From Synechococcales cyanobacterium C42_A2020_086 (lineage in GTDB: Bacteria; Cyanobacteriota; Cyanobacteriia; Elainellales; Elainellaceae): a DNA stretch of 64,000 nucleotides. The notes below the pieces were generated by a model. The model was not told where the DNA came from. It searched no databases and worked only from the letters and a program-made list of their open reading frames with translations. The stretch spans positions 186,001 to 250,000 of the forward strand of contig JACYLU010000008.1 in NCBI GenBank assembly GCA_015272325.1, in the 5' to 3' direction. The position numbers were made by a program, and so were the translations under genes. Below are positions 29,073 through 45,419 of this stretch, in pieces; the first letter of the stretch is position 1, and the number at the start of each line of letters is the position of its first letter.

Positions 29073-29410
29073 TTAGTGAGCCATTAGTGAGCAAGCATTG
29101 TGCTGGAGCGTGATCGTGCGCAGCGTAACTAGAGAAGTTTCAGGAGTTGGCAGCACAAACTGCCGTCCGCACTCCTGGCAGCGGAATCGAGATTTACCGT
29201 GGATGAGTATGTCCGTCAATGTTTCCAGAGGCTTTTGACTTTGAACTGGTATCGAGGTTAAACATTTGCTTAATCCTCGTTGAGGATGCGAAACTCACGT
29301 TCCCAAATCTGTTGTTGTTCTGGAGTTAAAATTTGGCTGATTGTTCGCAGATAAGCGGTCAACGATGGGTTTCGCCAATGCCAGATACAGTTGAATACTT
29401 TAGTTGCTGC
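29073..29410 (-). pseudogene. Degraded gene fragments (zinc-ribbon piece and a C-terminal tail)
   Basis: Two adjacent minus-strand scraps. The piece at 29270-29410 encodes a C-terminal tail ending ILTPEQQQIWEREFRILNED with no start codon. The other (29073 to about 29290) contains KSRFRCQECGRQFVLP, a zinc-ribbon knuckle like those in transposases, in another frame. Neither has a start or a full domain, so both look like remains of decayed genes just upstream of the CRISPR region. Confidence 0.4.
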
Positions 29411-29544
29411 CTAGAGCCACTATAGCTTTCAAGCTTTCAACGCGCAACGTGACTTGCACCCGCTGCTAGAATAACCGGTAGTTTGGCTACATTCCCTGAC
29501 TGAAAACTCGTTGAGATGCCGTTCAGAGTTCTCTGCTTTTTGCC

Positions 29545-30852
29545 ATGTCCACCATCTTGCTCATTACCGTTGGCGGTTCTCCTCAACCGATTATCACCGC
29601 GATTCAATCCCTCACTCCCGATCGCACCGTGTTCATTTGTTCCGATGGTGCTAGAGGTAGCGTTTCTCAGGTGATTGGCGAGGGAACGCCCTGCGAAATG
29701 CGGCGGGGAGCAGAGGTGGTGGAACGGTTGCCGAATTTGCCGACCCATTTGGGCCTGGGCGATCGCTTTCATCCAGACACCGATCTAGTGCGCCTGGACA
29801 ATCCCGATGATTTGGCCGAGTGCTACGGACGCATTGCCGCCAAAATCAATGAAATCAAAACCACCGATCCCAATGCCCAGCTTCTGGCAGACTATACAGG
29901 CGGCACCAAAACCATGTCCCTGGCGCTGGGCATGGCGGCATTGGACTATGGCGTAACACTATACCTGACCACCAATGCCACCCGCGAAAATCTGATTCGG
30001 GTGGAGCGGGGCGAATCGACTGAACGGGCACCCACTACCCTGCTGACCGTGGAACGCACGCTCAACCAGGATCTGCCTCGGTTTTTGCAGGACTATAACT
30101 ACAGCGGGGCGATCGCCACCCTGCAAACCCTGCTGCAATCCCTGGAACTGCCCCAGGATCAGAAACGCAAACTCCGGGAATGGTTGGATATTTACAAAGG
30201 TTTTGATGCTTGGGATCGGTTTGATCACCAAACGGCTTGGGATTTACTTTCCCTGCACATGAATCAGGTACAGTCTTACGGACTGGCGCTCAAGCGCGTC
30301 CTCAGCAGTCGCCAGGCGATTGACCCTACCTTTCAGCCAACCGAGACGATTCCTGGTCACGGCTACGAACTGGTGGAAGACCTGCTGCTCAATGCCCAGC
30401 GTCGTGCCCACCAGCAGCGCTATGACGATGCCGTTGGTCGGTTGTATCGAGCACTAGAGTTACTGGCGCAAATTCGCCTGCGGCAGACCTATGAGTTGCA
30501 AACGGGGGACATTGATCTGGAAAAGTTACCTGCCGAATTGCAGGAGAAGTACAGCGCTGAGCGCAATCCCCGCAACGGCAAAATTCAGCTTCCGTTGTGG
30601 AAAAGCTATCTCCTATTGAGCGAGTTGGCCAACGATCCCCTAGGGCAACGGTTTCAGGCACACGCCAAATCCCTGGAAAATGCGCTCCAGGTACGCAATT
30701 ATTCCTTATTTGCCCACGGTTTTCAGCCCATAACGGAAAGCGACTACCGTCAGACCGGGCAGGTGATTCAAACTTTCATCGCAACCGCTTTAGATGCACT
30801 CATTCCCAGCAAAAAGCGCCATCCCCTGCCCCAGTTTCCAACTAGCTTGTGA
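29545..30852 (+). CDS. CRISPR-associated CARF-HEPN protein, TIGR02710 type
   Basis: 435 residues. The N-terminal Rossmann-like CARF domain opens ILLITVGGSPQPIITAI and has the ligand-loop motif LLADYTGGTKTMSLALGMA. The C-terminal half is helical and ends with RNYSLFAHGF, an R-x6-H motif of HEPN ribonucleases. By analogy with Csm6/Csx1, it should bind a cyclic oligoadenylate made by Cas10 and then cut RNA non-specifically. No Cas10 is encoded in the window. A degraded second copy of its 3' end lies at 36462-36620, showing that the locus was duplicated. HIP1 octamers occur inside. Confidence 0.88.
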   Translation: MSTILLITVGGSPQPIITAIQSLTPDRTVFICSDGARGSVSQVIGEGTPCEMRRGAEVVERLPNLPTHLGLGDRFHPDTDLVRLDNPDDLAECYGRIAAKINEIKTTDPNAQLLADYTGGTKTMSLALGMAALDYGVTLYLTTNATRENLIRVERGESTERAPTTLLTVERTLNQDLPRFLQDYNYSGAIATLQTLLQSLELPQDQKRKLREWLDIYKGFDAWDRFDHQTAWDLLSLHMNQVQSYGLALKRVLSSRQAIDPTFQPTETIPGHGYELVEDLLLNAQRRAHQQRYDDAVGRLYRALELLAQIRLRQTYELQTGDIDLEKLPAELQEKYSAERNPRNGKIQLPLWKSYLLLSELANDPLGQRFQAHAKSLENALQVRNYSLFAHGFQPITESDYRQTGQVIQTFIATALDALIPSKKRHPLPQFPTSL

Positions 30853-30873
30853 ATCGGGGGTCAAGCTTGAGTG

Positions 30874-31032
30874 TCTGCGGCTTTGCGGGCGAGTCTAGCG
30901 TAAGGTGCGGCAGCACATCAAGCCAGAAGAGGACAACGTTCGCTTTTACTGGATTCCAACGGATGCACTCCCCAGAGTGCTGACCCTGGGCAGCGGCCCA
31001 CCCGAACCGCCCCCAGAGTTTTATATCATTTA
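30874..31032 (+). pseudogene. Deletion scar: 3' ends of cas6 and cas2 joined
   Basis: 30874-30902 matches the last codons of cas6 (compare 37418-37446), and 30902-31032 matches the last 131 bp of cas2 (compare 40434-40564) with about six base differences. The rest of cas6, all of RT-cas1 and the 5' half of cas2 are gone from this copy. The join lies at a short shared AGG. Confidence 0.88.
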
Positions 31033-31282
31033 ACAATTGCCGGTCGTTTTTTGAGCCGACCTGGATTATGATGAGCCTATTGGCGATGACCGCCATAGGT
31101 CGGCTGAACCTTGAAAACCGCATGATTTCGTTGACCTATGGCGATGGCTTGCCCCATCAGGGTTTCAGCCATCAAAGTTTCCTGATTTTTGAGCCTTCGT
31201 GCCCTGATTTTCAGGTCAAGAATGACCTATGGAGATCGAGGGTACTGAACCTCTCAGCCTGTAAAGGTTCCAGAAGGCCACC
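31033..31282 (+). promoter_or_regulatory. CRISPR leader, array 1
   Basis: 250 bp with no difference seen from the leader at 40565-40814. It contains TGACCTATGG at 31132 and 31223 and the inverted CCATAGGTC at 31093-31101. These are candidate sites for Cas1-Cas2 docking or a host factor; the closest ends 46 bp before the first repeat. The array promoter should lie here. Confidence 0.85.
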
Positions 31283-34200
31283 CTTTCCCAACCACTTCCC
31301 CGCAAGGGGACGGAAACCTGCTGCTCATAAAGCTCTTGCGCTGAAACTCTAGCAACTTTCCCAACCACTTCCCCGCAAGGGGACGGAAACTACCTGTGTT
31401 CTGGGGACTATTGGGAGGCGGCGGGCCACGGCGCTTTCCCAACCACTTCCCCGCAAGGGGACGGAAACTAGACCGAAGTTATACGCTGTATTGAACATCC
31501 CAAAGCTGATGGATACTTTCCCAACCACTTCCCCGCAAGGGGACGGAAACCAAGCGTTCACTCGGAGGTGTATTGCCACAAGCACTATGCTGCTTTCCCA
31601 ACCACTTCCCCGCAAGGGGACGGAAACCTTTGCATGTCCGCAAGCAGCAATCTGTTCGATCGCCTTTCCCAACCACTTCCCCGCAAGGGGACGGAAACCC
31701 TGTTATGGCATGGGTTACTCGAAAGTCTTTATCAGCTTTCCCAACCACTTCCCCGCAAGGGGACGGAAACAAGGTGTCTACCACATCCCTCTGTTCTAAC
31801 AGAGGCTTTCCCAACCACTTCCCCGCAAGGGGACGGAAACACCATTGAGGATAGTGAAGTGGTTCATATGTACGAATGCTTTCCCAACCACTTCCCCGCA
31901 AGGGGACGGAAACTTGGTACACCGCTGCCCCGATGTACTCCAATATACGGGTGGAGACTTTCCCAACCACTTCCCCGCAAGGGGACGGAAACTCTCATTC
32001 AGCTTATCCACTACGTACTTAACCACACGGTCTTTCCCAACCACTTCCCCGCAAGGGGACGGAAACAGTCGAAGTTGTGCACAACGGCAGTTCGCGCACC
32101 TATCTTTCCCAACCACTTCCCCGCAAGGGGACGGAAACATATCCGCTGGAGTTGGTCGAAAGAGCGGCTGAGATTTTGCTTTCCCAACCACTTCCCCGCA
32201 AGGGGACGGAAACTGTCTAAGGGTAATAACACCACATACACTAATACCCCTTCTTTCCCAACCACTTCCCCGCAAGGGGACGGAAACCTCCTATACCGGT
32301 TGTAATTTGTGCTAACTGTGTTGCGGGGTCTTTCCCAACCACTTCCCCGCAAGGGGACGGAAACAAATACCCTTGTTGTTGTGTACCCAGCTCAGACTGA
32401 TAACTTTCCCAACCACTTCCCCGCAAGGGGACGGAAACGGATAGCGGATGCAACCATTACCACTTTCCCATTATACATCACCTTTCCCAACCACTTCCCC
32501 GCAAGGGGACGGAAACATCAACCTCGTCAGAGACCCCCAGACGTATAGCTTGCTTCTTATACTTTCCCAACCACTTCCCCGCAAGGGGACGGAAACCTGG
32601 AGCCGCTAATACCTAAAAAGACCGCTCCGCAGGCGTCTTTCCCAACCACTTCCCCGCAAGGGGACGGAAACACCCATTGGTTGATTAGGTAATCTTCATC
32701 AACATTAGCTGCCTTTCCCAACCACTTCCCCGCAAGGGGACGGAAACCACAAAGTCAATGCTACCGTTAACCCCAGCGTACTCTACTTTCCCAACCACTT
32801 CCCCGCAAGGGGACGGAAACGCATCCATGGGTTCCTTAAAGGGTACCCAGTCATACCCTTTCCCAACCACTTCCCCGCAAGGGGACGGAAACTAAAAGAA
32901 CAACCTGATTCCTTCGCTTAGTCGATTACTTAAAACTTTCCCAACCACTTCCCCGCAAGGGGACGGAAACTCTGGGTACTTCCGCATAGCTAAGGGAAGT
33001 GTTGCTGAAGGCTTTCCCAACTACTTCCCCGCAAGGGGACGGAAACAGGGCATACCAATGTACGTCAGAACCCGTGTTAAATCTTTCCCAACCACTTCCC
33101 CGCAAGGGGACGGAAACAGTAGAGGGCGACTGATCATATAATGTGTACCATACTGGTGACTTTCCCAACCACTTCCCCGCAAGGGGACGGAAACAAGTAG
33201 AGTAAGTTACCCCCAGCACTCATCAGTTGTATGCTTTCCCAACCACTTCCCCGCAAGGGGACGGAAACTACCAGTTCCTAGCCAACCAGAATGGGTTCCG
33301 TGCTAAGTTCTTTCCCAACCACTTCCCCGCAAGGGGACGGAAACGTATTCTGGCGAGGTGCTTTTGAGGAAATGCTTTGGTTCCTTAAGCTTTCCCAACC
33401 ACTTCCCCGCAAGGGGACGGAAACTATAGTTAAATCATGACAGTTGCAGTTACTACACTCACTAATCTTTCCCAACCACTTCCCCGCAAGGGGACGGAAA
33501 CGATAGTGCTTGCCTCGGGAAGGGATATCGTTCTAAGCTTTCCCAACCACTTCCCCGCAAGGGGACGGAAACAAGTTGCGGCGATGGACCATCGAGACCG
33601 CACCCCTTTCCCAACCACTTCCCCGCAAGGGGACGGAAACCCTCTTCGTATTCAGCATGACTTGACACCTACGCTAGGTGGGACTTTCCCAACCACTTCC
33701 CCGCAAGGGGACGGAAACCATATCCCTGGTTAGCTTGGGTACACCCCATGGTTGGTTGCTACTTTCCCAACCACTTCCCCGCAAGGGGACGGAAACCATC
33801 TTCCTGAGGAAAGTGGAAGGCAATGACATCCTCAGGGTACTTTCCCAACCACTTCCCCGCAAGGGGACGGAAACTGTTGAATACTTGGTTATCACTCAAA
33901 CGTGTCACCACAAACTTTCCCAACCACTTCCCCGCAAGGGGACGGAAACAACTTGTTAGCCAATGCTTGACGGGTAGCACCGTTAATGTCTTTCCCAACC
34001 ACTTCCCCGCAAGGGGACGGAAACCAACCATGCGATACGGTGTGGGAATTGGAGACGTGCGAACCCACTTTCCCAACCACTTCCCCGCAAGGGGACGGAA
34101 ACCGGTACGCCGGGATAATCCACCCATAGTCGTCGCCGACTTTCCCAACCACTTCCCCGCAAGGGGACGGAAACACAACTTAGGTGTTACTCTCTCCAAA

Positions 34201-34946
34201 GCGGAGTTGGCACAGATGGCTTTCCCAACCACTTCCCCGCAAGGGGACGGAAACCGTGATGTTCATGGTAGTTACCTCGTGTGTGTGTGTGGGCTTTCCC
34301 AACCACTTCCCCGCAAGGGGACGGAAACTTCTCTGCCAGTTCCCGAGGAATAGTGTTCAAGAATTGGTTAAGCTTTCCCAACCACTTCCCCGCAAGGGGA
34401 CGGAAACAATTAAGGCAACAGTCAGGGGCAGTTAGTTTTGATGGAACACTTTCCCAACCACTTCCCCGCAAGGGGACGGAAACTCAACAGGGGGTAACAC
34501 CCACCACGGGTATAGCTGCAGGTATAGCTCTTTCCCAACCACTTCCCCGCAAGGGGACGGAAACCCCTCGGGCATTGGTTGTACCCTCGGGTCTTAAGTG
34601 GGAGAGGTCTTTCCCAACCACTTCCCCGCAAGGGGACGGAAACAACAAGCTCCCCACTTGTGTTTGTAAGTCGTGGAGAGCTTTCCCAACCACTTCCCCG
34701 CAAGGGGACGGAAACATCCTATGACCGTAATGAGAACTTGCTGTGGGTACAAACCTTTCCCAACCACTTCCCCGCAAGGGGACGGAAACTCAACTTGAGT
34801 AGTTACAAACAAAACTCGCTCGGCAAGGCGTACGCTTTCCCAACCACTTCCCCGCAAGGGGACGGAAACAAAGTTTTGCTGCCGTGCAATCCAGCTACGG
34901 ATTTGCGCATCCTTTCCCAACCACTTCCCCGCAAGGGGACAGATAG
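31283..34946 (+). CRISPR. CRISPR array 1: 49 repeats, 48 spacers
   Basis: The 35-nt repeat begins CTTTCCCAACC and ends ACGGAAAC; its core TCCCC-GCAA-GGGGA forms a 5-bp stem with a GNRA loop. Spacers are 33-47 nt. The last repeat (34912-34946) is intact to GGGGAC and then diverges, which marks the leader-distal end and sets transcription left to right. The repeat at 33012 has one C-to-T change. The ACGGAAAC 3' end would be the 8-nt crRNA tag, a type III-like feature. No repeated spacer was noticed within this array. Confidence 0.97.
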
Positions 34947-34966
34947 TTTATTGTTGACGGATACTG

Positions 34967-34990
34967 AAAAAAACGCCCCAGTTGAGGGCG
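34967..34990 (-). terminator. Terminator of the psbA gene
   Basis: Read on the minus strand, CGCCCTCAACTGGGGCG is followed by seven T. It lies 51 bp after the D1-like gene and separates it from the end of CRISPR array 1. Confidence 0.8.
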
Positions 34991-35040
34991 CTGCATTCAT
35001 AGTAGTTCAGTGCTGAGGGCGATCGCCGCAACCGAAACAC

Positions 35041-36117
35041 TTACAAGAATCGAGCAGGAATCGGATCTCCACTGGCAAGAATCACCGGAAAATGATGGGT
35101 GTTGGGAGCGTGCATGGCCTGAATGCCCAAGGTTGCTCGATTCAGTAGATCCGCCTCCGTAGGAATCACATGACCCTGACTGTCCAGAATCGAATGGTTA
35201 AAGTTAAAGCCATTCAGGTTAAACGCCATTACACTAACTGCCAGAGCCGCTGACCAGATACCGATCGTCGGTAGGGCGGCCATCAAGAAATGGATTGTCC
35301 GGCTGTTGCGGAACGCCAGTGGCGGGATCAATAACCGTCCCAGATAACCCACATGGCCTGCCATCAGGTTGTAGGTAGTTTCCTGTTGACCAAAACGGTA
35401 GCCCGTATTCACTGATTCCAGATCAGAGGTTGCCCGAATCAAGCTCGCAGTCACCAGAGAACCGTGAGTGGCACTCAGGAGTGCACCGCCAAAAACTCCC
35501 GCCACTCCAATCATGTGTAGAGGATGCATCAAAATATTATGGTCAGCTTGGAAAGCGAACATGAAGTGAAATGTACCTGAGATACCTAGAGGCAAGCCCT
35601 CAGAAAAACTGCCTTGCCCGATGGGGTACACCAGTAGAACGGCGATTGCCGCAGCGACAGGGGCTGAAAACGCAACCGCAATCCACGGACGCATTCCCAG
35701 ACGATAGCTCAGTTCCCACTGCCGACCCATGTAAGCCACAATACCAATCAAAAAATGCAGCACAATTAGCTGATAAGGCCCACCGTTATAGAGCCATTCA
35801 TCCACTGATGCCGCTTCCCAGATGGGATAGAAGTGCAGCCCGATCGCCGCAGAAGTAGGAATCACGGCAGCGGTAATTAAGTTGTTACCACTGAGCAAAG
35901 CTCCCTGAATCGGTTCACGAATGCCCTCCATATCAACGGGTGGAGCGGTAATGAATGCCAACAGGAAAACGATCGTTGCGACTAACAGAGTGGGAATCAT
36001 CAACACACCAAACCAGCCGATGTATAGCCGACGATCCGGGCTGGTGATCCAATCACAAAACCGCTCCCAAATTCTGAAGATATCCAGAGACGGTCGCTGT
36101 TTAACAGAAATAGTCAT
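35041..36117 (-). CDS. psbA: Rogue D1 protein (psbA paralogue lacking Mn-cluster ligands)
   Basis: 358 residues, a five-helix D1 protein ([67 protein letters not shown]). In standard D1 numbering by alignment, Tyr161, His190, His198, His215, His272, His332 and Ala344 are kept. Asp170 is Glu, Glu189 is Asp, Glu333 is Ala, Asp342 is Ile and Asp61 is Glu, so the Mn4CaO5 cluster could not form normally. In the QB pocket Phe255 is Leu and Ser264 is Ala, with one extra residue after His252. Positions 127-128 are Met-Gly, not the Gln-Asp of ChlF, so this is a rogue/sentinel D1 and not chlorophyll f synthase. ATG 36117 has AGGAGG 8 nt upstream. Confidence 0.9.
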
Positions 36118-36247
36118 AATCAAGCCTCCTGAAATGACGAGAGATGCATGATTAACTCCTAGAGAGCGATAGGAAGAAAAATGGAGAGTATTCCGATTGC
36201 ACTCTAGCTGCATCGTCTTTCAGTCAGAGTAAACCTTTCTTCCAAAG

Positions 36248-36269
36248 GTTCTATACAGAATTGTAGAAC
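36248..36269. promoter_or_regulatory. Inverted repeat upstream of rogue psbA
   Basis: GTTCTA (36248-36253) and TAGAAC (36264-36269) are 10 bp apart, about 130 bp before the psbA start. This could be an operator for the dark or micro-oxic expression expected of rogue D1 genes. The binding protein is unknown. Confidence 0.35.
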
Positions 36270-36461
36270 GATGGCTTGATTATCAGACAGTTATTTAATG
36301 ATTTTTTAGATGACGATGACCGTGTTTGAAGTCAGACCCCTCATGAGGGAATGCCTATGGAAAGCCGGGCTTCCTGGAGCTTTAGGAATTGATCAAAGCC
36401 AAAAAGCTTTCTATGCATAAAGTGGTGGTTGGAGCAGTATTCCTTATCGATACTTCTTTTG

Positions 36462-36620
36462 CGAAATTATTCACTGTTTGCCCACGGTTTTCAGCCCATT
36501 ACGTAAAATGACTACCGTCAGACTGGGCAAGTGATCCAGACCTTCATCGCAACCGCTTTAGATGCACTCATTCCTGGCAAAAAGCGCCATCCCTTGCCCC
36601 AGTTTCCAACTAGCTTGTGA
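36462..36620 (+). pseudogene. 3' remnant of a second CARF-HEPN gene
   Basis: This stretch aligns with the end of the gene at 29545-30852, from the HEPN motif codons (SLFAHGF) to the same stop (TTTCCAACTAGCTTGTGA). It has scattered substitutions and an in-frame TAA in place of an ITESD-type codon. It shows that the right-hand CRISPR copy once carried its own CARF gene. Confidence 0.9.
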
Positions 36621-36664
36621 ATCAGCTCTCAAACCTGAAGTTAGCTTTAGCCAGAAATGGAAGC

Positions 36665-37324
36665 TCAAGTGCTCGGCGAGTCATGCAGCCGACTTCTAAT
36701 CCACTGACGAAAGGCTTGCACTGCACGATTGCGTCCTTCGATGCGGCTTTGCTCCAAATATTGAGAAATTGCCAGATGGAGTTGCCACCCCGGTAAGCTA
36801 GGGCTATCGGGCACTTCTACATAAACTCCATTTTGAAGCTGACAGAGGTGAATCTTGCCGTCCGCCCACTGCCAGAGTTCTGGAACGCCCAAAGCAGCAT
36901 AGATTTCGGGGTGGGTGCGGGAAGGAATATCAATTTCTAGGGCCAGGTCTAGGGGTGGATCGACGGTCAGATCTAATCGTTTTTTTCCACGAATAGCAGG
37001 CTCGTTTTGAATATAAAAACATTGATCTGGCTCGATGCCTTTTAGCATCAACGGATTCTTAAAAGTAGTTGAACCCAGGGTGCGAAGTTCGATATCTAGT
37101 TCCTCTAGAAAACACTTCAGTAAATCGCTAATAACTTCCTTATCGTCTTCATGTTCAGGAAGCGGAGCCATGATTTCAAGGAGACCCTTGTTAAAGGCGA
37201 TGCGGGTGCTGCGGTGTTCTCCGAGTTCCTTCAGAATGGCTTCAAACTCATCCCAGCTAACGTTATGCAGCAGAACACGCTGTCCAGAGGGAATATCGAG
37301 CTGCTGAAGATGAATTGTGACCAT
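36665..37324 (-). CDS. Uma2-family PD-(D/E)XK protein
   Basis: 219 residues. WDEFEAILKELGEHRSTRIA, IAFNKGLLEIMAPLPEHED, then CFYIQN and LDLTVDPPLDLALEIDIPSR are the characteristic Uma2 order, with D...E-x-D in the nuclease core. These proteins are strongly expanded in cyanobacteria, and few have a tested function. It lies between the CARF remnant and cas6, a position absent from the left copy, so it either moved in after the duplication or was lost on the left. Confidence 0.85.
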   Translation of the reverse strand: MVTIHLQQLDIPSGQRVLLHNVSWDEFEAILKELGEHRSTRIAFNKGLLEIMAPLPEHEDDKEVISDLLKCFLEELDIELRTLGSTTFKNPLMLKGIEPDQCFYIQNEPAIRGKKRLDLTVDPPLDLALEIDIPSRTHPEIYAALGVPELWQWADGKIHLCQLQNGVYVEVPDSPSLPGWQLHLAISQYLEQSRIEGRNRAVQAFRQWIRSRLHDSPST

Positions 37325-37404
37325 TGGGATTTGTCTGGGAGTCTTTGCAGAAAATGATTGCTTCTATCCTAACGACTTTAGTTTATCTAGGAAGTGAATA
37401 AGGC

Positions 37405-38535
37405 TCAGGATTTAGTTTCTGCGGCTTTGCGGGCGAGTTTGGCGTAGGTTTTAGTGGTTTCGTAGCGCAGCCCCAAATCTTCGGCGATGTCTTGCAAGGA
37501 TTCACCTAGTTCGCGCCGAGCCAAGATGGTGGCCCAGGTTTCGGCAATGGCGATCGCCCTTTCTCCCCCTGTGCGCTTGCGTTGGGCGAGGAACTGTTCA
37601 GTCAGGTCTGCAATGCGCTGAGCCAGCAGGTCTTGGCGGGTGGGCTGGGGAGGGGTAACGGGTGCAGCCGACCAGCCGAGGCGAGTTTGGCCCAGTCCGA
37701 AGGGGGTTTTGTGGCCCGTGCCGCAGTAGGGCGCATACCTGCCCAGGGCCATAAATAGCCGCACATACTCTGCATCCTCGAGGGCTGTCTTACTCAGCCC
37801 CAGTTCAATCGCCCCTGTGAATCCCGTGACCGATCCCCGCTTACCGGCAACCGTTTTGACAGATTGCAGGTGATGGCGCGTGATGAGCACCGATTCATCA
37901 ATCCAGTCCAAGAAATCTTCTTGGTCATACTCTATGCCCGAAAAGTCGTTCCAGCGGCGCAGGTAGCTATGGAATAGGTTTGTGGGAACGGGCAGCGGAA
38001 AGTGGTGTTTGTGGCGGCGGAAACTGGTGGGCGAGAGGAAGGAGAAGGCGATCGCCGGATTGTCGGGAATAGGCTCGTCAAACAGCTTCTGGTAAGTTGT
38101 GGCAGGATGGCTGGGAGGGGTGAGGCCCCAATCCACGATTTGCAGGGGTGCACCCCGCAACTCCACGGTTGCCGGGGGATGTTGCAACCAATCCATGAGC
38201 CAGACCACCACCGGCTGAGAGAGTGCCGTAATGGTCCAGCCATAGCGTTTGCCAGCGCTAAGTTTGGGACTGCCGCCCGGCGCAATGTCGATGCCCTGCA
38301 ACCCAGAGATGGTAAAGGGCTTCTCAGACTCGCCATCGTGTAGGTAGGCAGACAGGTCGGGGTTCCTCTGCCGCACTTGATCGAGTAACCAGGCGTGCAG
38401 CCCAATCGTGTATTGAGGATAGAGCGTACTCTCTTGCTGGGGCTGGAGTTGCAGCGTTAGCCCCACCAGTTGGGTATCAGCAGGAAAAATGGAACTCTGG
38501 GTTTGTTTGGGCTGGCGGGCGCGAGTGCGAGGCAT
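37405..38535 (-). CDS. cas6: CRISPR endoribonuclease Cas6 with C-terminal HTH-like tail
   Basis: 376 residues. The Cas6 signature Gly-rich loop GTGHKTPFGLGQTRL stands at about residues 272-286, preceded by the ferredoxin-like pair and FSFLSPTSFRRHKHHFPLP, whose His/Arg may serve in cutting. It should process the long array transcript 8 nt before each spacer, leaving ACGGAAAC tags. A 90-residue extension follows the Gly loop, with ESLQDIAEDLGLRYETTKTY, a helix-turn-helix-like unit. Oriented away from RT-cas1. The very 3' end of a second copy survives at 30874-30902. Confidence 0.85.
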   Translation of the reverse strand: MPRTRARQPKQTQSSIFPADTQLVGLTLQLQPQQESTLYPQYTIGLHAWLLDQVRQRNPDLSAYLHDGESEKPFTISGLQGIDIAPGGSPKLSAGKRYGWTITALSQPVVVWLMDWLQHPPATVELRGAPLQIVDWGLTPPSHPATTYQKLFDEPIPDNPAIAFSFLSPTSFRRHKHHFPLPVPTNLFHSYLRRWNDFSGIEYDQEDFLDWIDESVLITRHHLQSVKTVAGKRGSVTGFTGAIELGLSKTALEDAEYVRLFMALGRYAPYCGTGHKTPFGLGQTRLGWSAAPVTPPQPTRQDLLAQRIADLTEQFLAQRKRTGGERAIAIAETWATILARRELGESLQDIAEDLGLRYETTKTYAKLARKAAETKS

Positions 38536-38694
38536 AGGAAAGGGATAGCACAGGGATGATGGTGCTTCAGCAGAGTGTTTAGTGTGTCAGTCCCGTCAAT
38601 ATTTTATGCCTATTTTAGTCCCCCTTTGGGGATTTAGGATCAGGTTTACCCTTCTTACTAACCTTCTTACTAATAGGTCTGCCGGTTTGGGGTA

Positions 38695-40290
38695 TTGCAC
38701 CTAGTGGAGCAATGGCTATCGGTGGGCATACTGACACGAGAAGGGGTGTACTTTCCCCAGCAGGGCATCCCCCAGAGGGCCGTGATTTCGCCCCTGCTGG
38801 CCAATGTCTACCTGGATGACTTTGATGAGGCGATCGATGGCACCAAGCTGAAGTTGGTGCGCTACGCCGACGATTTTGGGGTGCTGGGACGCAAACAGCA
38901 GCACGTTCAAGCCGCTAGGGAGCAAGTGTCGCAGCTTTTGGGGGAGATGGGACTAGTCTTGCACCCCCAAAAAACGAGCCTGACCAGCTTCGAGCGGGGG
39001 TTTCAGTTTTTGGGCCATGTGTTTAGCGGTGATCTGGTGCTGCCGATGAAAAAGGTGACAGACCCCAAACCCCCGGATGAAACCAACATCCGCTTGGGAT
39101 CAGACCTGCGCCTTGTTCACACCGACGCGCCAGCGCAGAACACGCAGATGGAGCAGGCGCTGCTGGCGGCGCTCAAGGCATCACAACAGCCTATACCGCC
39201 ACCCTTATTTGTGGTGCTGGGCTATCGGGTGCGCGAACCTGAACGAGTTGAAATCACATCAAGCGAAACAATTTGGAGGACGGGTATGTCAACGCTGTAT
39301 CTGGTGCACCAGGGCACCACGGTCAAAAAAGAGCAGAGCCGCTATGTGCTCAAGCTGCCCAAGGAGGCGGCACTCGAAATTCCGGTGCGAGAGGTGGAGC
39401 GGGTGCTGGTGTTTGGCAATATTCAGCTCACCGCGGCAGTGATTGCTGAATGTCTGGAAAACCAGGTGCCGGTGGTGTTTATGTCCCAGCTAGGAGACTA
39501 CAGGGGCCACCTGTGGAGTGCAGAGTACAACGACATCGGCACAGAACTGGTGCAGTATCAGCATCAGGGGAATGAGGGCTTTAAGCTGGCCACGGCTCGC
39601 GCCATTGTGGCGGGAAAGCTGACCAATTCGCGCCAGCTCTTGCTGCGGCTCAACCGCAAGCGCCAGCTTCCAGAGGTGGCTGAGGCAATTGCGACGCTGG
39701 CAGAGTTGCTAGAGTCTAGCCTTCAGGCCGACAACCTCAATGCTCTACGGGGCTATGAGGGGCTGGCAGCAGCCAAGTATTTTCGTGCCCTGGGGGCGCT
39801 GATTGTCAACCCGGCCTTCACGTTTACTGAGCGCAACCGTCGCCCACCCAAAGACCCGGTCAACTCGCTGCTCAGCTTTGGCTACACGCTGCTGTTTAAC
39901 AACGTCTTGAGTCTGCTGCTGGCGGAGGGGCTAAATCCCTACCTGGGCAACCTGCACGGGTCAGAGAAAAAGCAAACGTTTCTGGCCTTTGATCTGGTGG
40001 AGGAGTTTCGATCGCCCGTGGTGGATAGCCTGGTGATGCGGCTGATTAACCAGAAGTTTTTGAAGCCCACCGATTTCACCTGGCCCAATGCCGAGGGTGG
40101 CATCTACCTTAACGACGCTGCCCGCCGTCCCTTCCTCAAGCAGTTTGAAGAGCGCCTATCGCTAAAGGTGTCTCACCCCGATGTGGCAGAGCCAGTCTCC
40201 TACCGGCGGGTGATGCAGCTCCAGGTGCAGCGCTACAAGCGGGCGTTGCTGGAGGGGGTGCCCTACGAAGCGTTTCGCAAGGTGAACTAA
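38695..40290 (+). CDS. cas1: RT-Cas1 fusion with truncated RT domain
   Basis: 531 codons from a TTG; an in-frame TAG stands seven codons upstream. The RT part begins only at the end of the palm: GIPQRAVISPLLANVYLD (motif 4, Arg where Gly is usual), LVRYADDF (motif 5), then QFLGHVF. Fingers and the first catalytic Asp are absent, so RT activity is very unlikely. A linker of about 80 residues leads to a complete Cas1 of 334 residues starting MSTLYLVHQGTTVKKE at 39286, where GGAGG lies 6 nt upstream, so Cas1 can be made on its own. Catalytic residues are visible in GYEGLAAAKYF (Glu), GNLHGSEK (His) and AFDLVEEFR (Asp). Confidence 0.9.
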   Translation: MHLVEQWLSVGILTREGVYFPQQGIPQRAVISPLLANVYLDDFDEAIDGTKLKLVRYADDFGVLGRKQQHVQAAREQVSQLLGEMGLVLHPQKTSLTSFERGFQFLGHVFSGDLVLPMKKVTDPKPPDETNIRLGSDLRLVHTDAPAQNTQMEQALLAALKASQQPIPPPLFVVLGYRVREPERVEITSSETIWRTGMSTLYLVHQGTTVKKEQSRYVLKLPKEAALEIPVREVERVLVFGNIQLTAAVIAECLENQVPVVFMSQLGDYRGHLWSAEYNDIGTELVQYQHQGNEGFKLATARAIVAGKLTNSRQLLLRLNRKRQLPEVAEAIATLAELLESSLQADNLNALRGYEGLAAAKYFRALGALIVNPAFTFTERNRRPPKDPVNSLLSFGYTLLFNNVLSLLLAEGLNPYLGNLHGSEKKQTFLAFDLVEEFRSPVVDSLVMRLINQKFLKPTDFTWPNAEGGIYLNDAARRPFLKQFEERLSLKVSHPDVAEPVSYRRVMQLQVQRYKRALLEGVPYEAFRKVN

Positions 40291-40565
40291 TGCTAATACT
40301 AGTGGTCTACGATATTCCCGACAACAGGCGGCGTGCAAAACTAGCGACGTTTCTGGAGGGCTATGGGCGGCGCGTGCAAAAGAGCGTATTTGAGTGCTTT
40401 TTGCCCCTGGCGGAGATGAAAACCCTCCAGCAGAAGGTGCAGCGGCGCATCAAGCCAGAAGAGGACAACGTCCGCTTTTACTGGATTCCAGCGGATGCAC
40501 TCCCCAAAGTGCTGACCCTGGGCAGCGGCCCACCCGAACCGCCCCCAGAGTTTTATATCATTTAA
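40290..40565 (+). CDS. cas2: CRISPR adaptation protein Cas2
   Basis: 91 residues: MLILVVYDIPDNRRRAKLA with the metal-binding Asp, then GRRVQKSVFECFL and DNVRFYWIP. It forms the Cas1-Cas2 integrase that inserts new spacers at the leader end. Its ATG overlaps the cas1 stop (TAATG), so the pair is translationally coupled. The Pro-rich tail PPEPPPEFYII is somewhat unusual. The 3' third exists again as a scar at 30902-31032. Confidence 0.95.
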   Translation: MLILVVYDIPDNRRRAKLATFLEGYGRRVQKSVFECFLPLAEMKTLQQKVQRRIKPEEDNVRFYWIPADALPKVLTLGSGPPEPPPEFYII

Positions 40566-40814
40566 CAATTGCCGGTCGTTTTTTGAGCCGACCTGGATTA
40601 TGATGAGCCTATTGGCGATGACCGCCATAGGTCGGCTGAACCTTGAAAACCGCATGATTTCGTTGACCTATGGCGATGGCTTGCCCCATCAGGGTTTCAG
40701 CCATCAAAGTTTCCTGATTTTTGAGCCTTCGTGCCCTGATTTTCAGGTCAAGAATGACCTATGGAGATCGAGGGTACTGAACCTCTCAGCCTGTAAAGGT
40801 TCCAGAAGGCCACC
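40566..40814 (+). promoter_or_regulatory. CRISPR leader, array 2
   Basis: Same sequence as the array 1 leader by eye. Direct TGACCTATGG copies fall at 40664 and 40755, and the inverted CCATAGGTC at 40625-40633. It begins directly at the cas2 stop. Confidence 0.85.
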
Positions 40815-43800
40815 CTTTCCCAACCACTTCCCCGCAAGGGGACGGAAACACGAAACTGGCTGGGTCCGCTATCAAGGACAGCTGGTCCTACTTTCCCAAC
40901 CACTTCCCCGCAAGGGGACGGAAACTGAATGGAAACCTCACGTTAGGGAGGTTAACTGGTCTTTCCCAACCACTTCCCCGCAAGGGGACGGAAACTCCGC
41001 CTAGTGGCGCACACGGTGTTGCCCGCTTTGATGCAGAACTTTCCCAACCACTTCCCCGCAAGGGGACGGAAACTCCAGTAGCAGTTCCTGTTTAAGTTGC
41101 ATAGGGTTGTCCTTTCCCAACCACTTCCCCGCAAGGGGACGGAAACACGCAGGTTTTTAAGACTGTTGGGGTGCATTGACGATCTCCTTTCCCAACCACT
41201 TCCCCGCAAGGGGACGGAAACTGTTACCACTCCGTACAAGCGGTACCGTACGTGTGCTTTCCCAACCACTTCCCCGCAAGGGGACGGAAACTCGCGGCAA
41301 TCTGCGCCTGAATCTGCTGGTTTTCCAGCTCCAAGGCTTTCCCAACCACTTCCCCGCAAGGGGACGGAAACCTTCTAGAAGGTCCAGAACCGCTAGCGGC
41401 AGACGAAGGGTCAGCAGCTTTCCCAACCACTTCCCCGCAAGGGGACGGAAACTGGTAAGAGTGTTGTCACTATATTCCGGGTGGGTAACTTTCCCAACCA
41501 CTTCCCCGCAAGGGGACGGAAACTTGGGTAGTGGTGTCTAACCCAGTTAACGTAGTAGCACCAACTTTCCCAACCACTTCCCCGCAAGGGGACGGAAACT
41601 AATTCGATCCGGTGTTTTAGCGGTAGGCGTCTCACTGACTTTCCCAACCACTTCCCCGCAAGGGGACGGAAACCCGTTTGGGGTGGTCAGGGTTTTTAAC
41701 ACCACGTACCTTCTTTCCCAACCACTTCCCCGCAAGGGGACGGAAACATGGTGCAATTCCTTATTTCAACATTAGCGCTGTTGACTTTCCCAACCACTTC
41801 CCCGCAAGGGGACGGAAACTTTTTACGGACACACTGCTGGGTAGGTCCTCATGAGTTACTTTCCCAACCACTTCCCCGCAAGGGGACGGAAACTGTACAC
41901 TGTATCGTGTTATGGGTGCTAAGTCAGGGTCAACTTTCCCAACCACTTCCCCGCAAGGGGACGGAAACCTGCTGATCTCCAGAGAGAAATCTGCAAAGAG
42001 ATACCTCTTTCCCAACCACTTCCCCGCAAGGGGACGGAAACAAATTCGCGGGCGCACAGGACCCGAATTTTGCGTCGCAACTTTCCCAACCACTTCCCCG
42101 CAAGGGGACGGAAACTGCAACCCGCTGCGCCCCCCACCCCTGGGTCAAGCCCACTTTCCCAACCACTTCCCCGCAAGGGGACGGAAACCGGACGCAACTG
42201 CCTCGCTCAAGAGCTGCACAATCAACTTTCCCAACCACTTCCCCGCAAGGGGACGGAAACTATTTAGGATTCCGAGCGCCGAACACCGGCAAGACCGTGC
42301 TGGCTTTCCCAACCACTTCCCCGCAAGGGGACGGAAACGGTCATCCGTTCCAGTGATACAGAGAGTGGTCTGTACTTTCCCAACCACTTCCCCGCAAGGG
42401 GACGGAAACATTACGTGACTAGTGTCGTAGTATATCGCCTCTACAGCTTTCCCAACCACTTCCCCGCAAGGGGACGGAAACTAATGCTACGGGGTCAAAG
42501 AGGGTGAAGTCAACAGAGAGTTGCTTTCCCAACCACTTCCCCGCAAGGGGACGGAAACCGAACACCTAAAGAAACAACAACGGGTTAGTGGACACTTTCC
42601 CAACCACTTCCCCGCAAGGGGACGGAAACGGAAGAGGCAGCTGAGACATAGTGTAACCATGGAGCAAATCCTTTCCCAACCACTTCCCCGCAAGGGGACG
42701 GAAACCTGCTGATCTCCAGAGAGAAATCTGCAAAGAGATACCTCTTTCCCAACCACTTCCCCGCAAGGGGACGGAAACAAATTCGCGGGCGCACAGGACC
42801 CGAATTTTGCGTCGCAACTTTCCCAACCACTTCCCCGCAAGGGGACGGAAACTGCAACCCGCTGCGCCCCCCACCCCTGGGTCAAGCCCACTTTCCCAAC
42901 CACTTCCCCGCAAGGGGACGGAAACCGGACGCAACTGCCTCGCTCAAGAGCTGCACAATCAACTTTCCCAACCACTTCCCCGCAAGGGGACGGAAACTAT
43001 TTAGGATTCCGAGCGCCGAACACCGGCAAGACCGTGCTGGCTTTCCCAACCACTTCCCCGCAAGGGGACGGAAACGGTCATCCGTTCCAGTGATACAGAG
43101 AGTGGTCTGTACTTTCCCAACCACTTCCCCGCAAGGGGACGGAAACTATACTCTGCCATAATTGCCTCAATCTCCGCAGCCTGTTTCCCAACCACTTCCC
43201 CGCAAGGGGACGGAAACCAAATGAAACCATATCTGCGTTGATGAGTTATCATCTCCTTTCCCAACCACTTCCCCGCAAGGGGACGGAAACAGTTCACTGG
43301 GATCGGAGCCTTCGCAGTACTCTACGAAGAAACTTTCCCAACCACTTCCCCGCAAGGGGACGGAAACAATATGGTTTGAGGTTGAACGATCGCTTGCATC
43401 AGTCCGACTTTCCCAACCACTTCCCCGCAAGGGGACGGAAACTAGTAGATCATGTTCAGATAGAACAACAATCCGATAAATGTCTTTCCCAACCACTTCC
43501 CCGCAAGGGGACGGAAACCAAATGAAACCATATCTGCGTTGATGAGTTATCATCTCCTTTCCCAACCACTTCCCCGCAAGGGGACGGAAACAGTTCACTG
43601 GGATCGGAGCCTTCGCAGTACTCTACGAAGAAACTTTCCCAACCACTTCCCCGCAAGGGGACGGAAACAATATGGTTTGAGGTTGAACGATCGCTTGCAT
43701 CAGTCCGACTTTCCCAACCACTTCCCCGCAAGGGGACGGAAACCAGCGACCGTAAGGACACTCACCACGAACAGCAGACTTTGCTTTCCCAACCACTTCC

Positions 43801-44566
43801 CCGCAAGGGGACGGAAACATTTACTCCAGTATGAACGTTTGTAGTTTTGTCGAGATGCCTTTCCCAACCACTTCCCCGCAAGGGGACGGAAACTACGGAT
43901 TTGCGCATCACGTGCATCCCATGCGGCGAGGCTTTCCCAACCACTTCCCCGCAAGGGGACGGAAACACGTAGCAACAAAGGAAATAACCACCAACTGTGG
44001 CAAACATGAAACTTTCCCAACCACTTCCCCGCAAGGGGACGGAAACAACTGAGCGGCGATTTCCTCTTGGCTCTTCTGTCCTAGACTTTCCCAACCACTT
44101 CCCCGCAAGGGGACGGAAACAACGTTAGGGTGGCTGCGACCCTAGTACAGCAGCGCAAAGCTTTCCCAACCACTTCCCCGCAAGGGGACGGAAACTTTGA
44201 CTGGAAAGGATTTCGCAGACATGCCTGGAACGATGTCTTTCCCAACCACTTCCCCGCAAGGGGACGGAAACTCTTTTACAATCGGTGTCAGAAATTGAGC
44301 GTCAATAGAAACAGCTTTCCCAACCACTTCCCCGCAAGGGGACGGAAACAATTCTCGCCGTGCGCAGCATTCAGGACGTCCAGCTTTCCCAACCACTTCC
44401 CCGCAAGGGGACGGAAACGAGAAGAACCAACCCAGAGCTGCACCTACCAGAGCTTTCCCAACCACTTCCCCGCAAGGGGACGGAAACAAACACTGCACGT
44501 GCCACATCCAATGGATTACCCGTAGTTACGTCTTTCCCAACCACTTCCCCGCAAGCGATCGAATGT
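40815..44566 (+). CRISPR. CRISPR array 2: 51 repeats, 50 spacers with two internal duplications
   Basis: Same 35-nt repeat as array 1. A six-spacer block (41969-42374) recurs exactly at 42706-43111, and a three-spacer block (43218-43407) recurs at 43519-43708, leaving 41 distinct spacers. The repeat at 43183 starts with G instead of C. The last repeat (44532) is intact only to GCAAG and then runs into the tail of a mutY-like gene. The spacer at 43894-43931 shares 16 nt with the last spacer of array 1. Confidence 0.97.
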
Positions 44567-44641
44567 GATGAAGTCAAATGGGTCACTTTGGCAGAATTAA
44601 GTCAGTATCCATTCCCGAAAGCCAATCTTAAGAACATCTGA
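44557..44641 (+). pseudogene. C-terminal remnant of a MutY/NUDIX-type gene
   Basis: The frame ECDEVKWVTLAELSQYPFPK-ANLKNI-stop matches the end of the NUDIX-like domain of adenine glycosylase MutY or a NUDIX hydrolase. It has no start and begins inside the last, broken CRISPR repeat, so the array end was fused to this gene tail by insertion or deletion. Confidence 0.6.
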
Positions 44642-44776: not shown

Positions 44777-45177
44777 TCACGCATTAGCTGCCCAAATAAT
44801 TGAAACATCGCTGTACTGCCTGAATGTTGCATCAGCACTGACAACCGTCATATCTTCCAACTGCGCCTGTGCAATCAACATTCTGTCAAACGGATCCCGG
44901 TGATGCAACGGTAAAGCAGCCGCGCGTAAGGCGTGAGTTGCTGTGATTTCTAGCGATCTCACACCTAACTGACCCATACGTCTAGAAATGTAGCCATCTG
45001 GGGGTTCTGGTAATGGTAGCTTTCCGAGCGCAACTTTGATACCGATTTCCCAGATGCTAGCGACCGAGAACCACAATTCGTTTGTTTATCGGCAATGTGT
45101 GGTATTACCTCCTCGCTTAACCGGTCTGGCTGGGCAAACCACCATAACCAGCATTGGGTATCCAACAAGAGCTTCAC
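44777..45177 (-). pseudogene. VapC-type PIN toxin, frameshifted
   Basis: The first 34 codons (MKLLLDTQCWLWWFAQPDRL) and the remainder (SVASIWEIGIKVALGKL, HHRDPFDRMLIAQAQ, VVSADATFRQYSDV) are in different frames, changing near 45075. Together they form a full PIN domain with the acidic residues D6, E, D and D. The toxin would have been an RNase. Its ATG overlaps the antitoxin stop. It is likely inactive unless frameshifting or a sequencing error is involved. Confidence 0.8.
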
Positions 45178-45419
45178 TCTTCGCCGCCCTCAAAGGCAAC
45201 CAAGATCTCCTCCGGTAAAGGAGCATCAAAGTCATCTGGTATGGTAAATCGACCTCGATCCAGCCCTAAACTAGCTCGTCGATTGGATGAAGGGTGAAAC
45301 GGAACGAGCTTTGCAACTGGGATACCTCGGTTTGAAATAATAATTTCTTCTCCACGTTCTACACGGGACAACAAGCGTGAGAGATTTGTTTTAGCTTGAT
45401 GGATATTTACAGTCTCTAT
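45174..45419 (-). pseudogene. Phd/YefM-type antitoxin with lost start codon
   Basis: The in-frame sequence ETVNIHQAKTNLSRLLSRV, then ERGEEIIISNRGIPVAKLVP, is a complete Phd antitoxin, but the initiator codon at 45417-45419 is ATA, and a stop precedes it with no ATG, GTG or TTG between. Translation could only restart at an internal TTG, losing the first DNA-binding strand. It is coupled to the frameshifted toxin downstream, so the pair is probably dead. Confidence 0.7.

Follow-up and report, generated by a model that had tools for sequence, protein, structure and literature searches.

Effector genes are missing from about half of RT-cas loci, although an array is often present, and such effector-less loci have been proposed to partner type III effectors in trans (Silas et al., 2017, PMC5513706, in the part of the text available to us). 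Compared with the RT-Cas1 modules described there, the locus analyzed here has a cut RT and is itself doubled. Similar consensus repeats within one genome are also frequent: 25.0% of arrays co-occur with another such array, and array duplication is named as a source of same-repeat arrays (PMC12814883, in the accessible sections). Leader homogenisation that can be dated by scars, a feature of our locus, is not described in those sections.

Among related loci, the III-A locus of Kaiparowitsia implicata GSE-PSE-MK54-09C (MAG, JAHHHI010000044, L048) has a similar TIGR02710 CARF protein (74% identity), RT-Cas1 (80%) and Cas2 (90%). Its leader is alike at 168 of 248 sites (80% over the best 154 columns), as is the end of its repeat. 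It differs in that Csm1 to Csm5 all score above the NCBIfam cut-offs, a different cas6 (32%) stands in line, a CARF-TM gene and a full RT (725 aa) are present, and one array is seen. In Leptolyngbya sp. SIOISBB (MAG, JAAHII010000001, L078), RT-cas1-cas2 lies between two arrays, both preceded by a leader-like stretch, and the RT domain is also damaged, by a frame change between residues 165 and 190. There, however, the two arrays have unlike leaders and repeats, csm genes are present (Csm1, Csm3 and Csm5 above cut-off), and the CARF-like gene at that place belongs to TIGR02619, not TIGR02710. A module in a single-contig genome of another family (G206, L123/L124) carries the same repeat, with RT-Cas1 93.8%, Cas2 96.7% and the leader 91% identical, and tblastn with eight effector queries found no effector in the 35 kb read; unlike our locus, it has a full RT (722 aa), CARF-TM instead of CARF-HEPN, no cas6 match and one array of 23-24 repeats. 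A relic on contig C59 of G246 (L125) retains CARF, a cas6 tail, an 86% identical leader and a first repeat in line, and neither RT-cas1 nor cas2 has a match across the 15.6 kb read; it differs in its broken CARF gene, its single repeat without an array and its other breakpoint, at which no cas2 tail is seen.

Within the window, the 64,000-nucleotide stretch of DNA that was analyzed, two copies of the locus lie in tandem:

29355..29417, + strand: remnant of a gene found upstream of CARF in G030 and G246, where it is a 206-aa ORF (blastn, 90-92% over 61-63 bp)
29545..30852, + strand: left CARF-HEPN gene, intact (TIGR02710, 6.5e-67)
30855..30903, - strand: relic of the cas6 3' end at the left scar (alignment to the right cas6 tail)
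30904..31033, + strand: relic of the cas2 3' end at the left scar (comparison with the right copy)
31034..31282, + strand: leader 1, identical to leader 2 (0/248 differences)
31283..34946, + strand: array 1, 49 repeats (the last degenerate) and 48 spacers
35041..36213, - strand: psbA-like D1 gene between the two copies (TIGR01151, 602 bits)
36462..36620, + strand: right CARF 3' relic (143/159 identical to the left)
36621..36704, no strand: CARF-Uma2 junction flank common to G030 (243-bp alignment, 36462-36704, at 84%)
36665..37324, - strand: Uma2-family nuclease gene (PF05685, 4.3e-17)
37405..38535, - strand: cas6 with a C-terminal HTH (Cas6 family match)
38695..40290, + strand: truncated RT fused to an intact Cas1 (family matches, alignment to full RT-Cas1)
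39275..39288, + strand: GGAGG followed by ATG (39286) at the start of the Cas1 domain, a possible internal start
40290..40565, + strand: cas2, intact (TIGR01573, 1.2e-17)
40566..40814, + strand: leader 2
40815..44555, + strand: array 2, 50 complete repeats and one further, cut repeat, with 50 spacers

An earlier note on this DNA had read the region as a duplicated locus with a cas6-cas2 scar in the left copy, and had called for the scars to be aligned. Each copy-versus-copy alignment was judged against the highest score of 200 shuffles. The CARF tails (30694-30855 and 36462-36623) are identical at 146 of 162 positions, with a score of 244 against a shuffle maximum of 26; the cas6 tails (30849-30906 and 37394-37449) at 47 of 56 (57 against 21); and the cas2 tail with the leader (30894-31300 and 40426-40832) at 398 of 407 (769 against 28). 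The CARF, cas6 and cas2 relics are therefore far above chance, and homologous relics are present in both copies; upstream and at the array ends, homology between the copies falls to chance level in the shuffle alignments. The scar is real, with the qualification that its cas6 part runs antisense to CARF and spans just ~45-50 nt; judged by eye, it is joined to the cas2 relic with 1-3 nt of microhomology. The CARF-HEPN gene of the left copy is intact, as the note had it. It belongs to the TIGR02710 ancillary RNase family (226 bits, curated cut-off 83.9), and its dN/dS of 0.09 against G030 indicates purifying selection. On the right, the reported reduction of CARF to its last 159 bp and the order of CARF relic, Uma2 sequence and cas6 were confirmed, whereas the reported RT-cas1 lacks the first 194 RT residues. 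The right-copy cas6 is 82% identical to a cas6 of G030; its HTH matches Sigma70_r4_2 at 19 bits, below the cut-off, and the PADLOC HTH model at 2.9e-20. Insertion of the Uma2 gene with a target-site repeat was considered and dropped, the best flank repeat being equalled by 22 of 500 shuffles.

RT-Cas1 is without RT residues 1-194, and the RVT_1 match starts only at profile position 102 of 205. The VLDADI motif is missing, PQG has become PQR and YADD is retained, so that the RT is incomplete; we take VLDADI, in the lost front, to be catalytic and assume the roles of PQG and YADD likewise. A genome-wide search for the RT N-terminus, run without a positive control in that genome, found none elsewhere. 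The Cas1 domain, by comparison, is complete (PF01867, 1.5e-87, profile positions 1-283 of 283) and aligns gap-free to that of G206. Purifying selection acts on both Cas1 and cas2 (dN/dS 0.10 and 0.08), and Cas2, leader and array adjoin the truncated RT-Cas1, as in an adaptation module. The GGAGG-ATG at the Cas1 domain also occurs in K. implicata, L078, L055 and L057 and is absent in L051 and L054.

The next-best Cas1 in the whole genome is 38% identical and the next-best cas6 34%, and the only other matches of the TIGR02710 CARF family are two short relics, so that by sequence a single set of Cas6, Cas1-Cas2 and CARF is left for the two arrays, which have repeat and leader in common. The earlier note had suggested that the two halves may share one set of proteins, with adaptation genes linked to array 2 only; the single set and this linkage are borne out, the left copy holding no adaptation gene. 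Its phrase that each copy keeps what the other lost applies to the complementary losses; it fails for the RT N-terminus, gone from both copies, and for the effector, of which the window contains none.

The history of the leaders can be read against the scar. All nine mismatches of the cas2-leader alignment lie inside 30896-30975, and the 342 nt from 30976 to 31317 are identical to the right copy. The cas2 relic carries six left-specific changes within 30907-30983, with none beyond 30975, so that 6/77 differences stand beside 0/248 in the leader (Fisher p 6e-5). All six are left-derived against G206 and five of six also against K. implicata, and 22/248 sites distinguish the right-copy leader from that of G206. 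When leader constraint is allowed for, 8-10 differences are expected and P(0) is 4e-4 to 5e-5, at a neutral rate of 0.22 chosen as the middle of the dS values; these figures replace a first estimate of P 1e-12, which ignored constraint. Three of the six scar changes sit no more than ~12 nt from the deletion point, and repair errors could thus explain some of them, weakening the leader test. On this evidence the leaders are homogenised after the copies diverged, presumably by recombination, and the 'same leader' of the earlier note, correct as identity, is more than mere sameness, since the flanks had diverged before. Identity of the leaders, the short stretches that direct new spacers into an array, suggests that the one surviving enzyme set serves both arrays. 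Arrangements of this kind, with arrays sharing one machinery, have precedents; what appears unusual is that the homogenisation can be dated by the scars and that the RT was lost while Cas1 was retained, and in the titles and abstract openings of the open-access literature we found no leader homogenisation or concerted evolution of this kind.

The repeat is confined to these two arrays (99 of 99 matches, up to 3 mismatches allowed), and the repeats are equally clean in both, with one internal variant each. No whole spacer is common to both arrays. Array 2 contains two internal segment duplications, and nine of its spacers are internal duplicates. Spacer length and GC do not differ clearly between the arrays (p 0.053 and 0.34; 48 versus 40 unique spacers, the last array 2 spacer left out). 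The oldest spacer of array 1 (a1_48) and spacer 42 of array 2 (a2_42) show a flush, same-strand overlap of 16 nt, with a chance probability of ~2e-6, as two cuts from one invader would give.

Is array 1 still written to? It may instead be a dead archive, transcribed and used and gaining no spacers, its leader identity a by-product of repeat-driven recombination. The absence of any adaptation gene from the left copy fits this reading, and recombination between CRISPR loci of one cell has been reported in Sulfolobales (PMC4390879, in the part available). We nevertheless regard it as doubtful: leader 1 and the first repeat are fully intact, the array 1 repeats are as clean as those of array 2, and the spacer overlap points to a shared invader, though both spacers are old.

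As to origin, the two copies do not have the same gene junctions, and each finds its match in other genomes: G030 shares the CARF-Uma2 junction of the right copy, and G246 and G031 share the CARF-cas6 arrangement of the left. The copies had thus, by their sequence, probably already differed before decay. Simple duplication followed by decay, as the earlier note proposed, is not supported as stated because the flanks downstream of CARF match different genomes; tandem CARF-cas6-(RT)cas1-cas2-leader-array copies with complementary losses stand, and identical copies before decay do not. Nor did the suggested comparison of relatives reveal an undivided CARF-cas6-RT-cas1-cas2-array locus among the related loci read; closest come the K. 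implicata locus, which is complete but has a different cas6 at another position, and two decayed loci. Duplication in situ with reciprocal decay, the leaders remaining identical through constraint only, would account for the complementary relics in tandem, for the 8 of 159 CARF-tail sites that group left with right, apart from G030 and G246, and for three cas2 sites within 30907-30983 at which the right copy and G206 differ and which the left shares (left and G206 differing at 9 = 6 + 3 of 77). It is unlikely in this form, given the junctions, each common to other genomes, and given that the divergence between the right and G206 leaders argues against constraint alone holding all 248 sites fixed beside so altered a relic.

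It is quite possible, if short of probable, that two related loci (xenologues, one G246-like and one G030/G206-like) were acquired separately, became neighbours and then exchanged the CARF tail and leader. Besides the junctions, the module occurs in another family (G206) at high identity in RT-Cas1 and leader and hence moves, and RT-cas1 modules are described as horizontally spread (Silas et al., 2017, PMC5513706, in the same part of the text). At five CARF-tail sites the left copy goes with G246 and the right with G030, and at one site the pairing is the opposite. The eight sites shared by left and right, together with the tandem position, favor duplication or heavy exchange instead, and the homologous stretch available for placing left versus right is only ~160-340 bp. 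Misassembly, with one locus split or the arrays swapped, is very improbable. The genome is a 38-contig draft, and the 342-nt identity could in principle let a short-read assembly swap the two arrays; but a divergence of about 8-16% between the relics shows that the copies did not arise by duplication in assembly, and other genomes contain each of the two CARF junctions.

Apart from the arrays, the large ORFs between 29 and 45 kb correspond to CARF, D1, Uma2, cas6, RT-cas1 and cas2 only, with no Cas10, Cas7 or Cas5 effector genes of a complete type III locus. In relatives, the same module is accompanied by csm (III-A) or III-D-like genes. K. implicata Csm1 finds no match in the whole genome, in a search without a positive control in that genome, and the Cas10 family is present on contigs C2 and C5 only. 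The C2 set comprises Csx3, Cas10, a Cas7-Cas5-like protein, Cas7 and Csx19. Csx19 (TIGR03984, 8.3e-40, 136 bits, cut-off 35) and the PADLOC models (Cas5_IIId 1.9e-30, Cas7_IIId 2.6e-142, Cas10 2.4e-128) identify it as a predicted III-D set, while its two RAMP proteins (Csx10 and Csx7 models) fall below the NCBIfam cut-offs. No array, cas1 or cas6 was found at C2:30000-66852. Of four other genomes with a Cas10 match of at least 53%, three carry, close by, cas1 or RT-cas1 and an array whose repeat core is similar; the fourth shows just the RT half before its contig ends. The III-D-like proteins of G030, G009, G024 and G031 are below the NCBIfam cut-offs or without a match, and their subtype rests on homology to C2. 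Judging from this linkage in relatives, the effector for both arrays is probably the III-D complex, acting in trans. The C5 set is just cmr-like (Cmr4 80.7 bits, cut-off 87; Cmr2 66.9, cut-off 79.4; Cmr6 weak; two members without a family match); it could use these crRNAs too, although it is accompanied by an array of its own, whose repeat is not the one found here. An orphan array on C10 (32 repeats, L132) was rejected as III-D partner, its repeat core resembling, by eye, that of the C14 array.

We somewhat favor a model in which both arrays, after scarring and leader recombination, depend on a single Cas6, a single Cas1-Cas2 pair and a single CARF-HEPN RNase, with III-D acting in trans. A mobile type III memory module (CARF-HEPN, antisense cas6, RT-cas1, cas2, leader, array) would have come to lie in tandem as two related copies. 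In the left copy, a single deletion would have fused the last cas6 codons to the last third of cas2, while CARF and array 1 with its leader were spared; in the right copy, CARF would have been cut back behind the Uma2 gene and the RT half would have lost its front, leaving cas6, Cas1 and cas2. Gene conversion between the leader regions may then have restored leader identity after the scar formed. The right-copy Cas1-Cas2 would insert spacers at both leaders, in trans at array 1, and Cas6 would process both transcripts, the repeat being the same. The crRNAs would be taken up in trans by a type III effector, for which the III-D set on C2, itself without an array, is the likeliest candidate, and target recognition would yield cyclic oligoadenylate that activates the left-copy CARF-HEPN RNase; capture of RNA-derived spacers would presumably be lost. 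The anatomy, the scars, the identity of the leaders, the truncated RT and the single gene set are read directly from the DNA. A broader proposal, which we offer tentatively, is that leaders within one genome evolve in concert: gene conversion would re-copy leader and first repeat between arrays as the cas genes decay complementarily, a single Cas1-Cas2 would keep both arrays writable, and the scars would serve as a clock, with the RT half dropped and the likely partner switched from III-A to III-D elsewhere in the genome. The locus offers a natural experiment on two questions: whether an array can still be written to once parted from its adaptation genes, and whether constraint or recombination keeps several leaders in one genome alike. 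That the RT front is lost with Cas1 still selected bears on the need for RNA-derived spacers in module persistence.

Spacer targets were sought with both whole arrays against phages and plasmids and with two short patterns against viral contigs. The phages gave no match, nor did the viral contigs for a 21-nt pattern across the a1_48/a2_42 overlap; one viral-contig match of an 18-nt pattern was rejected as chance, its flanks agreeing at 27 of 64 positions. The two arrays match 9 and 10 cyanobacterial plasmids, with 65-77% and 65-90% identity at the best places, and one plasmid match covers 92-93% of the array query; we take these plasmid matches to be other CRISPR arrays, matched via their repeats, and not spacer targets.

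The earlier note had described two adjoining CRISPR loci carrying complementary relics, and this description is borne out: the three relic alignments between the left and right copies each score far above every one of 200 shuffles. The two-copy locus with matching relics is real. The source genome, that of a cyanobacterium, comprises 5.93 Mb in 38 contigs, and the window corresponds to G000:C8:186001-250000. A psbA-like gene sits between the copies, which are arranged as follows.

Left copy: CARF-HEPN gene (TIGR02710), scar joining an antisense cas6 end to a cas2 end, leader, array 1 (48 spacers)
35041-36213, minus strand: psbA-like D1 gene
Right copy: 159-bp CARF relic, Uma2 gene, cas6, RT-Cas1 fusion with truncated RT, cas2, leader, array 2 (50 spacers)
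44777-45374, minus strand, just after array 2: PIN-domain gene and Phd/YefM-like gene (below cut-off)

The psbA-like gene matches its family barely above the cut-off (602 versus 596 bits). Several residues are altered at positions of Mn-cluster ligands, and the product may be an atypical 'rogue' D1.

Was one locus duplicated and then decayed, as the note had proposed? The relics imply the same former gene order in both copies: CARF stood on the side of cas6, and cas2 preceded the leader and array. Against this, the CARF junctions differ, and each is found in other genomes. Downstream, the two CARF tails have unlike flanks: the left order, with cas6 directly following CARF tail to tail, also occurs in two relatives (G246:C59 and G031:C612), and the right one, with the 3' end of a Uma2 gene after CARF, occurs in a third, G030, whose CARF is 94% identical. 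In the 19 kb read around the G030 CARF, cas6 gave no match. The CARF family is rare: among 36 genomes of the order, 4 have a match, one of them the source genome. Comparisons among copies and relatives span only 160 to 340 bp; at the 159 CARF-tail sites, left and right are united against both G030 and G246 at eight, left pairs with G246 and right with G030 at five, and the opposite pairing occurs at one. Changes are confined to the right copy at nine sites and to the left at one, a surplus that fits the right CARF being a relic; of the remaining variable sites, eight are specific to G030 or G246 and one is other. The mixed pattern fits sequence exchange between already differing copies. Because of this pattern and the differing flanks, duplication of one locus is likely but falls short of proof. 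The history seems more complicated than one duplication, with a mechanism that is plausible and testable. A third CARF relic (118 bp, G000:C37:314765-314882, L061:8766-8883; 84% to window 29601-29718) lies elsewhere in the source genome, head to head with a Uma2 gene, a neighbour arrangement as in G031.

Left and right are distinguished by 6 of 77 sites in the cas2 relic (30907-30983), but by none of the 51 sites in the final cas2 codons and none of the 248 in the leader (Fisher test, 6/77 versus 0/299, p = 6e-5). At all six sites the right copy matches G206, a single-contig genome of another family, and at five it also matches Kaiparowitsia implicata GSE-PSE-MK54-09C; the changes therefore lie on the left. 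The leader is free to change, since 22 of its 248 sites are different between the right copy and G206. Relative to a neutral rate of 0.22 (the middle value chosen from dS 0.19-0.28), this gives a ratio of 0.40, at which one would expect 8-10 left-right leader differences, with a probability of 4e-4 to 5e-5 of seeing none. The simplest account is recombination between the leader regions, later than the deletion. Three of the six left-side changes lie no more than about 12 nt from the deletion point, and errors at the break could explain part of the six, in which case the leader test is weaker. A promoter-like element nearly invariant across 37 arrays in six species of one genus has been described (PMC3396285). 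The MAG of Leptolyngbya sp. SIOISBB also carries arrays on either side of RT-cas1-cas2 (L078:8313-9350 and 11922-13254), but its leaders and repeats differ, which makes the identical leaders here more notable.

With up to three mismatches, the repeat occurs 99 times, always in arrays 1 and 2. A looser search of its core gave 99 forward and 31 reverse matches; at least one of the reverse matches lies on contig C10, with two mismatches. An orphan array of 32 copies of another repeat is located there (L132:12719-15032), and the Cas queries used found no match in the 16 kb read around it. Array 1's last spacer has 16 nt in common with spacer 42 of array 2. The shared stretch sits flush against the end of one spacer and the start of its counterpart, as would be required of overlapping pieces of one invader. 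Both spacers are old, so the overlap is no proof of spacer gain by array 1 after its cas genes were lost. Within array 2, 41934-42375 equals 42671-43112 (spacers 16-21 and 26-31) and 43184-43445 equals 43485-43746 (spacers 33-35 and 37-39), a sign of repeat-driven recombination. The array stops mid-repeat and runs into the apparent 3' end of a NUDIX-domain gene (44532-44641; PF14815, 9e-4, below cut-off); a deletion or insertion may have removed its trailer end. The genes that follow are probably a toxin-antitoxin pair, the PIN gene seemingly split over two reading frames.

RT-Cas1 is 531 residues long in the window, compared with 725 in K. implicata and 722 in G206. Homology starts at K. implicata residue 195 and, against G206, at window position 38691. 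The missing part, which was sought elsewhere in the source genome and not found, includes the VLDADI motif, which bears a catalytic aspartate in RTs. In the remnant, motif 4 has changed from PQG to PQR and YADD is retained. Purifying selection acts on Cas1 (dN/dS 0.10 in the comparison with G206). The remnant therefore probably lacks RT activity, and Cas1 is probably active. The remnant itself (dN/dS 0.19; the corresponding stretch gives 0.15 between G206 and K. implicata) is at most mildly relaxed, which favours either a recent loss or a role that persists. A GGAGG-ATG at the Cas1 boundary could be a start for Cas1 alone or a trace of conserved Trp-Arg codons; it also occurs in four of the six relatives in which the site was located (eight scanned) and is absent in L051 and L054. 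The RT domain of Leptolyngbya sp. SIOISBB is broken between residues 165 and 190. At L081:12627-14400 (G022:C22), cas6 stands back to back with only the last ~96 cas1 residues, followed by cas2; here, in a further lineage, the middle of this module has been lost.

According to Silas et al. (2017, PMC5513706), effector genes are absent from about half of RT-cas loci, yet these often have an array; the authors propose that such loci act in trans. Same-repeat arrays are described as common, with duplication and splitting named as sources (PMC12814883). Recombination between CRISPR loci within one cell has also been described (PMC4390879). Given these reports, the two-array arrangement is a variant of known systems.

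The window contains no type III effector genes, whereas csm genes lie in line with this module in K. implicata (III-A locus; Csm1-Csm5) and Leptolyngbya sp. SIOISBB (Csm1, Csm3 and Csm5 tested). K. implicata Csm1 found no match in the source genome, where Cas10 was found on contigs C2 and C5 only. C5 carries a cmr-like set (models below cut-off) with its own cas1-cas2 and an array of a different repeat. C2 encodes Csx3, Cas10, a Cas7-Cas5-like protein, Cas7 and Csx19, a III-D set; no array, cas1 or cas6 was seen on C2:30000-66852. Among 36 genomes of the order, 7 have a match to the C2 Cas10 (E up to 0.001), the source genome included; four others reach at least 53%. In three of these four loci, the stretch read holds cas1 or RT-cas1 and an array of similar core; the fourth (G031:C494) holds the RT half of RT-Cas1 and then the contig end. 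The window cas6 is 82% identical to that of G030, where the RT-Cas1 array adjoins a C2-like set, and only about 32% identical to that of K. implicata; the module thus resembles a III-A-type adaptation set paired with a III-D-type cas6. The III-D effector on C2, acting in trans, is the best candidate for its partner.
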